Below, piece after piece: positions 34,905-39,701 of a DNA stretch of 39,701 nt. Under the pieces are notes generated by a model. The model was not told the DNA's origin. It made no database searches and was given only the letters and a program-made list of their open reading frames with translations. Source of the DNA: Antarctobacter heliothermus (GTDB taxonomy: Bacteria; Pseudomonadota; Alphaproteobacteria; Rhodobacterales; Rhodobacteraceae); NCBI RefSeq assembly GCF_900188425.1, contig NZ_FZON01000049.1, forward strand, positions 1 to 39,701, read 5' to 3'. Position 1 is the first letter of the stretch, and each line of letters opens with the position of its first letter. The translations under genes were made by a program, and so were the position numbers.

Positions 34905-36404
34905 TCAGACCTCCTGCGCCGCCGCAACGGCGCGTTTCCAAGCGGCGTATTTTGCTGCACGGGTATCTTCATCCATATCCGGTTCAAACCGCCGTTCCAG
35001 CGCCCAGGTGTCGGCAAAGCCCGCCATGTCGGGATACACTCCGGCGCGTTGACCGGCCAACCAGGCCGCCCCCATCGCGGTGGTTTCCAGCACCTCGGGA
35101 CGGTCGACTGACGCGCCAATGATGTCCGACAGGAACTGCATCGCCCAGTCAGAGGCGGTCATGCCGCCATCGACCCGGAGCGTCGCAGCGGTTCTGTCCC
35201 CGCCGCCAGAGGCGTCCCAATCCGCCTGCATCGCCTCCAGCAGATCACGAGTCTGATAGCCTACGGATTCCAGCGCCGCGCGCGCCAGTTCCGCCGGGCC
35301 GGAATTGCGGGTCAGGCCAAAGATCGCGCCACGGCAATCGGCGTTCCAATACGGCGCGCCAAGACCGGTGAAGGCGGGCACCAAGATCACGTCCTGTCCG
35401 GCATCGGCGGTTTCGGCCAGCGGCTGCGTCTCTGCCGCATCCCGAATGATCTTCAGCCCGTCACGCAGCCATTGCACCACCGCGCCCGCAACAAAGATCG
35501 ATCCCTCGAGCGCGTAGCTGCGCTTGCCGTCCAGTTGATAGGCGATGGTGGTCAGCAGCCGGTTTTCGCTGCGCACGGGTGTTTCGCCAGTGTTGAGCAG
35601 GGCAAAGCAGCCGGTGCCATAGGTGGATTTCAGCATGCCGGGCTGGAAACAGGCCTGCCCCACGGTGGCGGCCTGCTGGTCGCCCGCAACCCCAAGGATC
35701 GGGATTTCGCGCCCAAACAGATCGGCGCGCGTCATGCCGAAATCGGCGGCGCAGTCCAAAACCTCTGGCAACATCGACTTGGGGATGTCCAGCATGGCGC
35801 ACATCTCGTCCGACCATGTCCCACGGTGGATGTCGAACAGCATGGTGCGCGCCGCATTGGTGGCATCGGTGACATGGCGCGCGCCGCCGGTCAGGTTCCA
35901 GATCAGCCAGCTGTCAACGGTGCCGAACAGCAGATCCCCTGCCTTGGCCCGTTCGCGAGCACCCTCGACGGTGTCCAGCAGCCAGGCCAGCTTGGTTCCC
36001 GAAAAATAGGGGTCCAGCAGCAGTCCGGTGGTGTCGGTGACTGTGCCTTCGTGACCCGCGTCCTTGAGCCTGCGACACAGGTCAGAGGTCCGCCTGTCCT
36101 GCCAGACAATGGCGTTATGGATCGGTTTTCCGGTCTTGCGATCCCAGACCACCGTTGTTTCGCGCTGATTGGTGATGCCGATAGCGGCAATCTCCTGTGC
36201 GCTGATCCCTGCCTTTTCGATGGCGGCGCGGCAGGTGGCGGCGGTGGTCGCCCACAGGTCCGACGGATCATGTTCGACCCAGCCAGAAGCTGGAAAGTGT
36301 TGGGGAAACTCCTCTTGCGCAGAACTGACGATCTGCAAATCCTGATCGAAAAGCAGGGCCCGGCTGGATGTGGTGCCCTGATCTATGGCGAGAATATAGC
36401 CCAT
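34905..36404 (-). CDS. glpK: Glycerol kinase
   Basis: A 499-residue FGGY kinase, close to the 502 of E. coli GlpK. The ATG at 36404 follows GGAGG by 8 bases. [15 protein letters not shown] is the N-terminal phosphate loop, [16 protein letters not shown] the substrate region, and [20 protein letters not shown] the motif shared with GlpK proteins. [20 protein letters not shown] and the GAAWLAG segment close the ATP site. It phosphorylates glycerol to sn-glycerol 3-phosphate. It is first in the minus-strand series with the kinase, gpgP and gpgS, and shares a two-way promoter candidate with the PRC-barrel-like gene. No glpF or glpD is present. Confidence 0.92.
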
Positions 36405-36500
36405 GGTCCGCTCCTCCCGAGTTTGGCGCCTGCGCTGCACCGCCCCTCAGTGAGTAGCTCTGGCCGTCTGCGCTGACAAGGTAGTGCCATGCCCGTAGGG

Positions 36501-36528
36501 GGAACGCCGCAAGGGTGGCGCGCGTTCC
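36501..36528. promoter_or_regulatory. Bidirectional EcfG-type (general stress) promoter candidate
   Basis: On the plus strand GGAAC (36501-36505) and CGTT (36523-36526) are 17 bases apart. On the minus strand GGAAC (36528-36524) and CGTT (36506-36503) are also 17 apart. The site is thus a GGAACG...CGTTCC palindrome. GGAAC-N16/17-CGTT is the consensus for EcfG/SigT/RpoE2 promoters in alphaproteobacteria. It lies between glpK (minus) and the PRC-barrel-like gene (plus), giving leaders of about 90 and 60 bases. Confidence 0.62.
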
Positions 36529-36592
36529 TTACAGGACCACAGTGACGGGTGCGCGCGCCGCCCACCCGCAGGATGCACAAGGAGAGACCCCC

Positions 36593-37261
36593 ATGTTGCA
36601 CGACCTTTCAGAGCTATTTGAGACACCGCTTGAGACACATTCCGGCCCGGCAGGTCTGCGCGAGGTCTTTTTTGATCGTGGCAACGGGCGCATCCGCCTT
36701 GTCGCAATCGAGATGGCGCATTCCGCCCCCCGGACAGAAGCGCTGATCGACGCGGCCCGCCTGTCCACGCCGGTGCACGATGGCGGCGGCTGGACCCTGT
36801 CGGTGGGGGACGATGAAATCGACGAGGCGCTCAGCTGGCCCGAGGTGCTGGAACAGGACGCAATGGACCTGTCCATTTGGCCGATGGTTGTGGCCGGTCC
36901 GCTGGGCACCAGCTTTGCCCCCCTGCTGGCACTGTCGGCGTTGCGAGCCAACCCGCCGGAGTCTGACCCGACATCGCCCGACACCCAGACCGCCAATGAA
37001 TTGGTCGCCCCGCTGGAACAGGCTGGCGACTGGATCGGCGCGGCGGTCTTTGGCCATGACGGAGAGCTTGGACACCTGACGGGGCTGATGTTTGAGCCAG
37101 CCACCCGGACCATCCGCGCATTGCGCCTGACGGATACACCCGCCGGGGGGCCGGTTGATCTGCCCTACGACCGCCTGCGCTATCGGGCAGAGAGCGGCGG
37201 CCATCTTGTGGTCGATGCGACGCGCGCTGATCTGGAACAGGTCGGCACCGAAAGCGCCTGA
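36593..37261 (+). CDS. Protein with two PRC-barrel-like halves
   Basis: A 222-residue soluble protein; AAGGAGAG lies about 8 bases before the ATG at 36593. Both halves look like PRC-barrel domains: LHDLSELFETPLETHSGPAGL.EVFFDRGNGRIRLVAIE (key part LFETPLETHSG) and WIGAAVFGHDGELGHLTGLMFEPATRTIRALRL (key part GELGHLTGLMFEP). PRC-barrel proteins are common members of the alphaproteobacterial general stress regulon. It has no signal peptide or membrane segment. The EcfG-type promoter candidate lies about 65-90 bases upstream. Specific function unknown. Confidence 0.72.
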   Translation: MLHDLSELFETPLETHSGPAGLREVFFDRGNGRIRLVAIEMAHSAPRTEALIDAARLSTPVHDGGGWTLSVGDDEIDEALSWPEVLEQDAMDLSIWPMVVAGPLGTSFAPLLALSALRANPPESDPTSPDTQTANELVAPLEQAGDWIGAAVFGHDGELGHLTGLMFEPATRTIRALRLTDTPAGGPVDLPYDRLRYRAESGGHLVVDATRADLEQVGTESA

Positions 37262-37306
37262 CCGGGACGCTCGCCTGGGACGATTGTAAAAAAGTGGATC
37301 AGTGCG

Positions 37307-37331
37307 GGAACCAAACCTCTCGTCAGGCATT
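37307..37331 (+). promoter_or_regulatory. EcfG-like promoter candidate upstream of the sRNA
   Basis: GGAAC (37307-37311) is followed after 16 bases by CATT (37328-37331), one mismatch from the EcfG consensus GGAAC-N16/17-CGTT. A start about 6 bases further on would give the small RNA at 37337. Confidence 0.42.
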
Positions 37332-37336
37332 TCTTA

Positions 37337-37430
37337 GGTATCAAGGCACGAAATGATGCGGGCGCGTTTCCTCCCCTCCCCCGCTCGCATCCCAACGCCC
37401 CCGTCGGTGCTCCGCCGGGGGCGTGTTCTT
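37337..37430 (+). ncRNA. Candidate stress-induced small RNA with a C-rich loop
   Basis: A gene-free stretch with the form of a trans-acting sRNA. After an unpaired leader, GATGCGGGCG (37355-37364) pairs with CGCTCGCATC (37382-37391; one G-T pair) around a 17-base loop, CGTTTCCTCCCCTCCCC. A second hairpin at 37395-37424 followed by GTTCTT forms a terminator. A CCTCCCC loop can pair with Shine-Dalgarno sequences; this is known for several alphaproteobacterial sRNAs, including GsrN, which is SigT/EcfG-dependent. It would be about 94 nt and lies just downstream of an EcfG-like promoter. Homology to GsrN is not shown; only the design is similar. Confidence 0.5.
37395..37430 (+). terminator. Terminator of the candidate sRNA (also of the PRC-barrel gene)
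   Basis: ACGCCCCCG (37395-37403) pairs perfectly with CGGGGGCGT (37416-37424), followed by GTTCTTG. The T-run is short, but the stem is strong. Confidence 0.65.
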
Positions 37431-37478
37431 GTGCGGATCATCGCGAAAGCCGCGCCTTGGGGACAGCAGCCACATGAC

Positions 37479-37508
37479 AAAAAAAGCCCGCCGCTGAATA
37501 CGGCGGGC
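37479..37508 (-). terminator. Rho-independent terminator of the small secreted-protein gene
   Basis: On the minus strand GCCCGCCG (37508-37501) pairs with CGGCGGGC (37493-37486) around a 7-base loop, followed by seven T (37485-37479). It ends the minus-strand gene at 37535-37825. Confidence 0.9.
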
Positions 37509-37534
37509 GTTCAAGAAGGCCATAGCGTTGAGTG

Positions 37535-37825
37535 TCAGTCGCGCAGCGCGGAATGCAGCGTTGACTGCGTCCCATGCATGTCGATGTGGACCAGCGCATC
37601 GTGCTGTTCCAGAACGTCATGGATCGCCACCAGCTTGGCCACATGTGAGGCGGACGGATGATCGACAATCATCTGCAGGCGGGCCTGACCCGCAGGCGGC
37701 ACCTCGGCCAGTTCGAACGCTTCTACGAACTGGTACAGATCAGCGGCAAGCGCATCCCGGACCTGCGCATTCGCGGGGGCCGTCAGCAGAGCGGCGGCGA
37801 AGGTGAGGGCGATGATACGGAGCAT
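37535..37825 (-). CDS. Small secreted protein of unknown function
   Basis: A 96-residue protein. I chose ATG 37825, preceded by AGGAGG about 6 bases upstream, because it begins with a signal peptide (LRIIALTFAAALLTAPANA, about residues 2-20). The mature part of about 76 residues is mostly helical, without cysteine, and contains three His near the end (IHDVLEQHDALVHIDMHGTQS). I do not recognise the family. It has its own terminator at 37479 and is convergent with the candidate sRNA. Stress control is possible by position but no GGAAC-type site precedes it. Confidence 0.72.
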   Translation of the reverse strand: MLRIIALTFAAALLTAPANAQVRDALAADLYQFVEAFELAEVPPAGQARLQMIVDHPSASHVAKLVAIHDVLEQHDALVHIDMHGTQSTLHSALRD

Positions 37826-38294
37826 TGTGATCCTCCTGGTCCGGTTGCGGTCATTGGGCAAACCTTGCCCGTCGGGTCGCGCCATCATGGCGGCGGCCCT
37901 GTTTTTCATGGTCTTGCTGTTGTTTTGTCGCTTGGCGGGCCTAGCGGCCGTTCGGTCGAAACCACGGGCGGCCAGGTGGCGGCGTGCACCGCGACGGCCC
38001 TGTTGGCGTCTGTCGGCAAGTCGTATTCATCTACGTCGCCCCCCATCGGCCAACCTGTTTCAACGAATGGCGCCGCTCAGGCAGCGCCCCAGCGGAGGGC
38101 AATGTCATGGCAACGCGGCGCTGTGCCGCAAAACATGCCTCCGTCCGCTGTCTTCAATAGCAAAACTCCGCCAATGCGGAAAAGGTTCCCTTGCGGTCTG
38201 AATTCCCCGTTAACGAAGCTGCGGGGAACGAATCGTCAGACACATGCGTTACGCCATTGCGGGGCTTTTCCCGCTTTCGAAGGACACGCCAGAC
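37826..38294. other. Gene-poor gap between divergent genes
   Basis: No coding region here is convincing: the plus-strand ORFs are rich in Arg, Pro and Ser runs and have no Shine-Dalgarno sequence. The right end holds the EcfG-type promoter candidate (38225-38250) and the small hairpin TTCCCCG (38203-38209) / CGGGGAA (38222-38228), which overlaps its -35. Nothing else is recognised. Confidence 0.5.
38225..38250 (+). promoter_or_regulatory. EcfG-type promoter candidate upstream of the alpha/beta hydrolase
   Basis: GGAAC (38225-38229) and CGTT (38247-38250) are 17 bases apart, an exact match to the EcfG consensus, within GGGGAACG. A start near 38257 would leave a leader of about 38 bases before ATG 38295, and it places the upstream ATG at 38244 inside the promoter. 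Confidence 0.6.
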
Positions 38295-39146
38295 ATGAAT
38301 GCCATCCCCTGTTCGACCCGTGGCAGACCAATCCCTGTCCAGCCACTGCGGACGGCGGCGAATCCTGTGGTTTTCCTGCCCGGCCTGTTCATGACCAGCG
38401 ATGCCTGGGCACCGATCTGCCAAAGCATGGGCCTGCGCAACCACCTGCTGCTGGATCTTCCGGGGCACAGCGCTGGCGAGACGGCCAAGCAGGTGGTCGA
38501 GTTGCTCCACGGCGACCGCTGGCTGGATCAGATGGAGACCCGGATTGCCGAGTTTTCGGACGGACGCCCGGTCCATCTGGTCGGCCATTCAACCGGCGGC
38601 CTGGTGAGTCTGCTTTTGGCGTGGCGCGCGCCGCATCTTGTGCGCTCTCTGGTGCTGGTGGGTGCCCCCATCACCGGCCACCGCGATCTGCCGCGTGACC
38701 TGGGTGCAGCCCTGATGGCGCATGACTATGCCGGACGATGGACCATGCCGCTGCTCTGGCGACTGGGTCTGGCGACAAGAAACAATTTCGAGCGCACAAT
38801 GGCGACTGTGATGCCGCGTGCAGCGGCCCGGCACGTCCCCGATGAGATGCGGCAAAGTCTGCGACGCTGCACACCCGAGGCAATCCGGCAATTCGGAAAA
38901 TGGGTTCTGGAACAGGATGTGACTGCCACGATGGAACGGATCGACAAACCCTGCCTGGCCATCATCGGGCGCCATGACTGCGTGGTGCCCGCGCAACATC
39001 AGATCAAGTTACTTCACCATCTACCGCAAGCGCAGGCACAGCTTGTGCCCGGCGGCCATCTGCCTTTTGTCGAACAGCCGCAGCAATTCGCGCGGACGTT
39101 GCGCGGATGGTTGTCGCTGCCGCATGACGCGCTGGCCGCCGGTTGA
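38295..39146 (+). CDS. Alpha/beta hydrolase
   Basis: A 283-residue alpha/beta hydrolase. I chose ATG 38295 (GAAGGA about 10 bases upstream) because the in-frame ATG at 38244 lies in the promoter candidate. FLPGLFMTSDAW is the oxyanion-hole loop, LDLPGHSAGE the second family motif, the nucleophile is Ser99 in LVGHSTGG, the acid Asp is in IIGRHDCVVP and the His in GGHLPFVEQP. The long helical cap (about 125-200) is rich in Arg and His. Substrate unknown. It overlaps the DUF2254-like gene's reading frame at its end, so both may be in the same stress-controlled transcript. Confidence 0.87.
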   Translation: MNAIPCSTRGRPIPVQPLRTAANPVVFLPGLFMTSDAWAPICQSMGLRNHLLLDLPGHSAGETAKQVVELLHGDRWLDQMETRIAEFSDGRPVHLVGHSTGGLVSLLLAWRAPHLVRSLVLVGAPITGHRDLPRDLGAALMAHDYAGRWTMPLLWRLGLATRNNFERTMATVMPRAAARHVPDEMRQSLRRCTPEAIRQFGKWVLEQDVTATMERIDKPCLAIIGRHDCVVPAQHQIKLLHHLPQAQAQLVPGGHLPFVEQPQQFARTLRGWLSLPHDALAAG

Positions 39147-39151
39147 CGGGG

Positions 39152-39403
39152 ATGGCGAACAAACGCGCTTTCAGTTTCGTCCAGACCATGCTGACCCTGC
39201 GTCGGATCAGCCGCATTCTATGGGTGCGGGTGGCACTGCTGTCGGCCCTGTCCGTCATCGCGGCGCTGTCGGCAGAATTGCTGGGCCCACTGATACCAGA
39301 CGGCCCACGCGACCGATTTACCGCGTCCGCCACGCTGCCGATCCTGACGATCCTTGCCAATGGCATGTTGGCTGTGAACAGGCATGCAATTTTGACCCCG
39401 TAA
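39152..39403 (+). pseudogene. DUF2254-like membrane protein, truncated by an IS21-family element
   Basis: Only the first 76 or so codons remain. VRVALLSALSVIAALSAELLGPLIP is the first membrane segment and loop, and the ILTILANGMLAVN segment is the start of the family's conserved (S/G)MLAVxxFSLSIM motif; after the N at codon 76 the reading frame runs into the IS (RHAILTP and a stop at 39401-39403). Full DUF2254 proteins are over 400 residues. An ATG at 39152 is the likeliest start; a later one lies at 39188. It follows the hydrolase gene with a 5-base gap. The rest of the gene should lie beyond the IS, outside the window. Confidence 0.72.
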
Positions 39404-39701
39404 CGGGGTGATCGGCGTCCAACAATGACCCCCTTACACTGATGTGGATGATGCTCCCGAGGCTATCGGGGAGCACAGTGTGGGATGTTGGTTGTGGAGA
39501 CGATTGCGAAGATCCGTCGGGCGTATTTTCAGGACAAGAAGCCGATCAAGCAGATCTGCCGGGAACTGCGGATTTCACGGAACACGGTGCGCAAGGTGAT
39601 CCGGTCCGGTGCGACCGAGCACACCTACGAGCGGACCGTCCAGCCGCAGCCGAAGATCGGTCCTTGGAAGGACGAACTCGACGAGATGCTGGCGACAAAC
39701 G
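39380..39701 (+). mobile_element. IS21-family insertion sequence, left part
   Basis: The left end lies at about 39380-39385, where the DUF2254-like reading frame breaks. Repeated TGACCCC units (39393-39399 and 39426-39432) are typical of the multiple transposase-binding sites at IS21 ends, and GGGG/CCCC stems lie beside them. A hairpin TGCTCCCGA / TCGGGGAGCA (39452-39475, one bulge) precedes istA. The element continues past the window; istB and the right end are not seen. Confidence 0.85.
39485..39701 (+). CDS. istA: IS21-family transposase IstA, N-terminal part
   Basis: ATG 39485 opens a frame that runs off the window: 72 whole codons. It starts MLVVETIAKIRRAYF, followed by a helix-turn-helix, KPIKQICRELRISRNTVRKV, which is the DNA-binding part of IstA proteins, and VQPQPKIGPWKDELDEML. 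No stop is reached. IstA is the DDE transposase that joins IS ends to target DNA with help from IstB. The start is 5' of no clear Shine-Dalgarno sequence, but the hairpin at 39452 is directly upstream. Confidence 0.9.
   Translation, partial: MLVVETIAKIRRAYFQDKKPIKQICRELRISRNTVRKVIRSGATEHTYERTVQPQPKIGPWKDELDEMLATN

Follow-up and report, generated by a model that had tools for sequence, protein, structure and literature searches.

The question raised by this locus is whether the short gap between protein-coding genes at 37307-37432 (plus strand) of the window, i.e., the whole 39,701-nt stretch of DNA that was analysed and whose positions serve as coordinates throughout, holds a gene for a stress-responsive small RNA (sRNA) and, if so, of which kind. 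This element is probably a real and functional sRNA gene of the EcfG-controlled type with a C-rich loop. Its product would most plausibly be a free-standing, trans-acting sRNA of ~88-95 nt, part of the EcfG stress regulon of Mameliella, which pairs with mRNAs through the loop, a reading that we hold with good, though not complete, confidence. An earlier note had claimed a GGAAC-N16-CATT promoter, a 10-pair stem with a 17-base loop, and a terminator, all of which are present at 37307-37432.

For comparison, six genomes of the genus were used, namely G000 (the genome of the window), G001, G002, G003, G004, and G005. The -35 box of the putative EcfG-type promoter, GGAAC, occupies 37307..37311 on the plus strand and is part of the block GGGAACCA, which is found in all six orthologs. 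The -10 box at 37328..37331 (plus strand) reads CATT in five orthologs and AATT in G004, and the two boxes are separated by 16 bases in each of the six. Ahead of the -35 box lies a tract at 37288..37294 (plus strand) that may act like an UP element; it is A-rich in 6/6 orthologs and is kept although the whole upstream flank is just 46% identical among them. Judging by the distance from the -10 box, the predicted sRNA (37337..37432, plus strand) would start at approximately 37337-37340 and end in the T-rich tail. Near its 5' end AGGCACG is conserved among the orthologs (GGGCACG in G004), and the conserved stretch AAGGCACG at 37343..37350 (plus strand) lies inside a small 5' hairpin in G001, G003, G004, and G005. 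The stem-loop (37355..37391, plus strand) pairs arms 37355-37364 and 37382-37391 in 10 pairs, one of them G-U, around the 17-base loop CGTTTCCTCCCCTCCCC at 37365-37381. Three bases further begins the intrinsic terminator with its T-rich tail (37395..37432, plus strand), comprising a hairpin at 37395-37424 followed by TGTTCTTGT; both-side changes are seen at 4 of its 12 pairs in the orthologs. At minimum free energy, 37336-37432 folds into both hairpins (−42.6 kcal/mol, z = −2.6), a result equalled by 3 of 200 shuffles. In the Rfam scan of the whole window no family reached its gathering score. Sub-threshold Rfam matches over the orthologs, for example to ncS035 (25.3 bits with a gathering score of 79), BcKCsr2 (22.8 and 40), and anti-hemB (20.5 and 49.5), were taken as chance.

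According to a DNA similarity search, two of the six genus genomes contain a match, the sole relative being G002 at 95%. From promoter to terminator G002 is almost unchanged, while substitutions and indels are seen in the DNA directly on either side. A covariance model built from the window and G002 sequences and then run on the six genus genomes returned a syntenic counterpart in every one of them, with scores of 169.7 bits for G002, 169.2 for the window, 55.1 for G001, 48.6 for G005, 44.6 for G004, and 42.6 for G003. All six counterparts adjoin the same convergent gene for a 96-aa protein and the same alpha/beta hydrolase gene. Common to the six are GGGAACCA, the -10 box, the stem, the C-rich loop, and the terminator; the flanks are not conserved. 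The -35 block has a mean pairwise identity of 0.96 and the -10 box one of 0.81; the values are 0.46 in the upstream flank, 0.44 in the spacer, and 0.29 in the downstream flank.

Folded singly, each of the six orthologs forms the loop stem and the terminator, with z values from −2.3 to −4.8. In a hand tally of the stem, which omits one bulged base in G003, all 48 cells of the inner 8 pairs are standard, and both-side changes fall on pairs 2, 3, 9, and 10. Two orthologs have A-U at pair 2, two have G-C, and in the remaining two this pair is broken; pair 1 is intact in two orthologs and broken in four. When arms were exchanged among the five distinct rows, 2 of the 120 permutations attained the stem's own score, one of them being the true pairing. 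The model-aligned count gives 95.2% of cells paired and 7 pairs with both-side changes, compared with a shuffled mean of 1.4 and 0-1 for slid versions, on a model-made alignment that itself favours the structure. The covariation that had been suggested as a check is thus found; the double changes come mostly from one lineage (G003), with pair 2 in addition, and therefore represent few independent events. As for the loop, the window and G002 have CCTCCCCTCCCC, whereas G001, G003, and G004 have CCCTCATCCCCC and G005 has CTTTTCCCCC, with a length of 17 or 19 bases. The expectation that the loop is kept in relatives was borne out for its C-rich character (6/6), but not for CCTCCCC itself, which is limited to the window and G002. 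Shared by all six is UCCCCC, the last C of which already belongs to the stem in the window and G002, where it opens the 3' arm.

Promoter strength was scored with a weight matrix built from 48 GGAAC-N16/17-CGTT sites within 20 kb around nepR, which encodes the EcfG anti-sigma factor, in the six genus genomes; the box columns of this matrix cannot vary because the training sites were picked by exact pattern. The site at 37307 ranks 5th among 79,312 scored window positions, and the top five all lie within 36501-38225, where 36501 (plus) and 36528 (minus) are one palindromic site read on both strands. Orthologous sites score 9.1 in G004, 11.1 in G003, and 14.5-16.6 in the other four. The promoter had been regarded as the weaker part of the case owing to its one -10 mismatch. 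That objection loses its force, as CATT is the common state among the orthologs, but the caution itself holds: ten mononucleotide-shuffled single strands match the score of the 37307 site 0-2 times each (7 overall), so the score alone is not significant. Likewise, the six genus genomes yield 17 matches to GGAAC-N16/17-CRTT-N15/45-CCTCC versus 29 to the reversed control, which is chance level, and conservation in relatives must therefore decide. Judged on the aligned sequences, it is this conservation, including boxes and position of the putative EcfG-type promoter in 6/6 genomes, that lifts the element above chance. GGAAC-N16/17-CGTT sites abound around nepR, and in four of the six genomes this core stress locus includes a GGAACC site with CATT as well, so CATT seems to be a tolerated -10 box. 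Sites of the latter kind were noted at L080 1411 (plus), L082 2272 (plus), L083 18729 (minus), and L084 18683 (minus).

The element indeed lies between two other EcfG-type sites, GGAAC-N17-CGTT at 36501..36526 and at 38225..38250 (both on the plus strand and the same in G002). The former precedes a PRC-barrel-like gene at 36593..37261 (plus strand; Pfam E-value 3.9e-4, 20.8 bits, just under the cut-off of 21.2), and the latter precedes the alpha/beta hydrolase gene, which probably starts at 38295. Between them, the 96-aa protein is encoded convergently at 37535..37825 (minus strand); it belongs to no Pfam family, has a signal-like start judged by eye, and serves as a syntenic anchor in 6/6 genomes. 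Because the PRC-barrel-like gene ends ~45-60 bases before the -35 box on the same strand in both the window and G002, the hairpins could be merely its terminator or 3' untranslated region, with a promoter arising by chance. The PRC-barrel-like gene is present, however, in just two of the six genus genomes, compared with all six for the promoter, loop hairpin, and terminator, and GGGAACCA is better conserved than its surroundings. Moreover, the nearest upstream gene found in G001, G003, G004, and G005 is on the opposite strand, so the RNA is its own unit there and no 3' untranslated region. We consider this origin rather improbable. Even less credit is given to a small peptide in place of a regulatory RNA: an open reading frame of 102 aa does begin at 37353, yet it crosses the terminator, its ATG is missing in G001, G003, and G004, and the loop differs by two bases in length between species, which makes a coding role very improbable. 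As for the more distant glpK gene (window 34905-36440), its occurrence is patchy: G002 and G004 have a match of nearly full length, G001 retains a remnant of 31 residues, and the 20-kb segments of G003 and G005 give no match.

Among known systems, the design most resembles that of GsrN of Caulobacter, described as its own general stress unit with an EcfG-type sigma promoter and an exposed C-rich loop in the 5' hairpin (PMC5869019). The window element likewise has a putative promoter of this type in 6/6 orthologs and a C-rich loop of 17-19 bases with UCCCCC in 6/6, so the likeness would be one of promoter and loop features rather than of demonstrated shared descent. The GsrN paper gives BLASTn hits in Caulobacteraceae only, and its main text has 0 occurrences of 'Rhodobacter' (PMC5869019). 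GsrN homologs are described there as typically, though not universally, near ecfG-nepR-phyR; the distance between the window element and nepR is 14.9-15.7 kb in G001, G002, G003, and G005 and 62 kb in G004. NepR itself was found in 6/6 genus genomes. In G000 the element and nepR are on different contigs, colinear with G002 across the contig break: followed from the RNA towards nepR, G002 aligns first with the window, as far as 39372, and then with the end of contig C110. The protein at the break (window 39372-39701) has helix-turn-helix matches near the Pfam cut-offs; we take it to be a transposase, and an insertion at this point is therefore likely. It seems to interrupt an open reading frame at 39143 that resembles the start of an intact 418-aa frame in G001 (L154 11789-13045).

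The known target of GsrN is katG, paired through a G-tract in its leader (PMC5869019); for the window element, pairing with katG was not supported. GGGGG does occur 41-42 bases before the ATG in four of five katG-B leaders (the exception being G002); for katG-A it is found within 100 bases in 0/6, and the background is 15 of 161 leaders of long open reading frames elsewhere. In a test that used mononucleotide shuffles and the region from 100 bases before to 20 bases after the profile-match start, duplexes between loop and leader were no better than shuffles for all 11 katG leaders (35 to 172 of 200 shuffles equally good), so the proposed target prediction with the C-rich loop gave a negative answer on katG. 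One of the two katG-like genes in the window's genome (L184, G000:C136) has an in-frame TGA within the match.

The other known RNAs with which the element has to be compared are those of the ar14 (RF02344)/NfeR1/'cuckoo' type, which share with it a C-rich loop, a variable stem, a terminator hairpin, and alphaproteobacterial hosts (PMC7143759, PMC3927594), and CcsR1-4 of Rhodobacter sphaeroides, four stress-linked RNAs of a related bacterium that are considered together with CcaF1, are grouped with the CIN1/cuckoo type, and are co-transcribed with a DUF1127 gene from an RpoHI/RpoHII promoter (PMC10253847). The element could thus be a diverged, single-copy ar14/CcsR/'cuckoo' member acting via an anti-Shine-Dalgarno loop. 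Such descent would fit the C-rich loop over a GC stem and the weak full-length ar14 matches of 25.2 bits in the window and 24.3 bits in G002. These scores, however, are far under the gathering score of 58.8, the other four orthologs gave none at E-values up to 2, and an equally weak match (24.5 bits) lies nearby in G002 on the opposite strand. While the cuckoo RNAs are described with three hairpins carrying anti-Shine-Dalgarno CCUCCUCCC loops (PMC7143759) and with a sigma-70 promoter, the window element has one C-rich loop and an EcfG-type promoter; CCUCCUCCC is absent from 6/6 orthologs, and the terminator loop is not C-rich. Judged by its letters, the shared core UCCCCC is nearer to the tandem cytosines described for GsrN than to CCUCCUCCC. 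Set beside the RpoHI/RpoHII promoter of the CcsR locus, the conserved boxes are GGAAC/CATT; the element is single-copy, and the neighbours found are glpK, the PRC-barrel-like gene, the 96-aa gene, and the hydrolase gene, with no DUF1127 gene among them. The genus also has stronger ar14 matches in arrays elsewhere, with CTCCTCCC loops and without a GGAAC promoter in the scan of the 75 bases upstream, and altogether membership in this group appears unlikely. Equally unlikely in our view is that the RNA is a protein sponge or a structural transcript, with a C-rich loop that is no pairing seed. The variation of the loop between species outside UCCCCC, the unsupported katG target, and the conservation of the 5' AGGCACG would agree with such a role, while the presence of one short motif without repeats speaks against it, as do the C-rich loops of GsrN and NfeR1, which are described as pairing seeds (PMC5869019, PMC7143759). 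With regard to ar14 in the genus at large, one array-like locus of the window's genome (L015, G000:C118:5377-6052) has 3 matches of up to 58.0 bits, and, counting singletons, each of the other five genomes has 7-10 matches at E-values up to 1. Three Mameliella genomes have separate single hairpins (L054 448-478, L057 427-457, and L059 455-484), each with its own terminator and a loop of the CTCCTCCC type; the scan detected no GGAAC promoter within 75 bases of them.

For the favoured reading, a free-standing sRNA of the EcfG regulon, the mechanism would be as follows. Under stress, the PhyR-NepR-EcfG cascade would free EcfG from NepR, and EcfG would then transcribe the RNA from GGAAC-N16-CATT up to its own intrinsic terminator. 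The large hairpin loop would expose its C-rich bases, of which UCCCCC is the part common to the six relatives, and could pair, in the manner described for GsrN, with G-rich stretches of mRNAs, either G-tracts in leaders or Shine-Dalgarno regions; such pairing, of whichever sign, would alter translation or stability. In Rhodobacterales the general stress response has received little attention. As stated in the 2018 paper on R. sphaeroides PhyR, no analysis of what PhyR does had until then been made in any member of the order (PMC5830050). A conserved RNA of the EcfG type there would mean that the GsrN principle, i.e., a stress sigma factor acting via a C-rich-loop RNA, extends to a marine group, for which six natural sequences with differing loop seeds would become available. 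Among the open-licence papers listed in our literature search, none names such an RNA in Mameliella, which does not prove its absence from print.

Regarding the distribution outside the genus, no ortholog was recognised in a 394-genome sample of the family with the covariance model (Infernal, stricter filters). The model has matches in 42 of these genomes at E-values up to 0.5, 40 of them outside the genus, and one place was inspected in each of 12 of the 40. Nine of these places are terminator-like hairpins without a C-rich loop, including L105 with a GGAACCAAACCTC stretch; of the others, L109 is a cuckoo-type hairpin behind a DUF1127 gene, L108 a C-rich stretch without a GGAAC promoter, and L111 a C-rich hairpin read as cuckoo-like. 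The six-ortholog model R2 raised L110 to 41.7, L109 to 39.3, and L119 to 32.8 bits, which left the reading unchanged. In the DNA similarity search three of the 394 genomes matched, namely that of the window and two borderline cases, at whose loci the hairpin scan detected nothing. The 96-aa protein, used as an anchor, has matches in five of the 394 genomes, three of them outside the genus. In G325, which belongs to another genus, glpK (82% identical) adjoins the 96-aa gene with ~105 bases between them, so the neighbouring genes are present and no such RNA is seen; in G376 there are two GGAAC sites, with no C-rich hairpin seen, and the match in G190 is weak. Since no ortholog was recognised outside the genus in this sample and the 12 places inspected, the RNA looks either genus-level in age or too fast-evolving to be recognised. 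Tentatively, the element might be an analogue of GsrN with a separate origin, in which the EcfG regulon acquired a C-rich-loop sRNA in Mameliella or shortly before this genus, with the fast-changing surroundings of UCCCCC possibly rewiring stress targets in each species; we regard this as a minority option, though one to be kept in mind.

Finally, a second GGAAC-type site on the minus strand, which has the 2nd best matrix score of the window, stands at the head of a leader in the segment from 38189 down to ~38050. This leader has the core GAAG.C.GCGG..GGAGG ... CCCT.CGC.GGGG in 7/7 aligned loci, including that of G325, and is possibly a stress-driven structured leader or an sRNA before the 96-aa gene.
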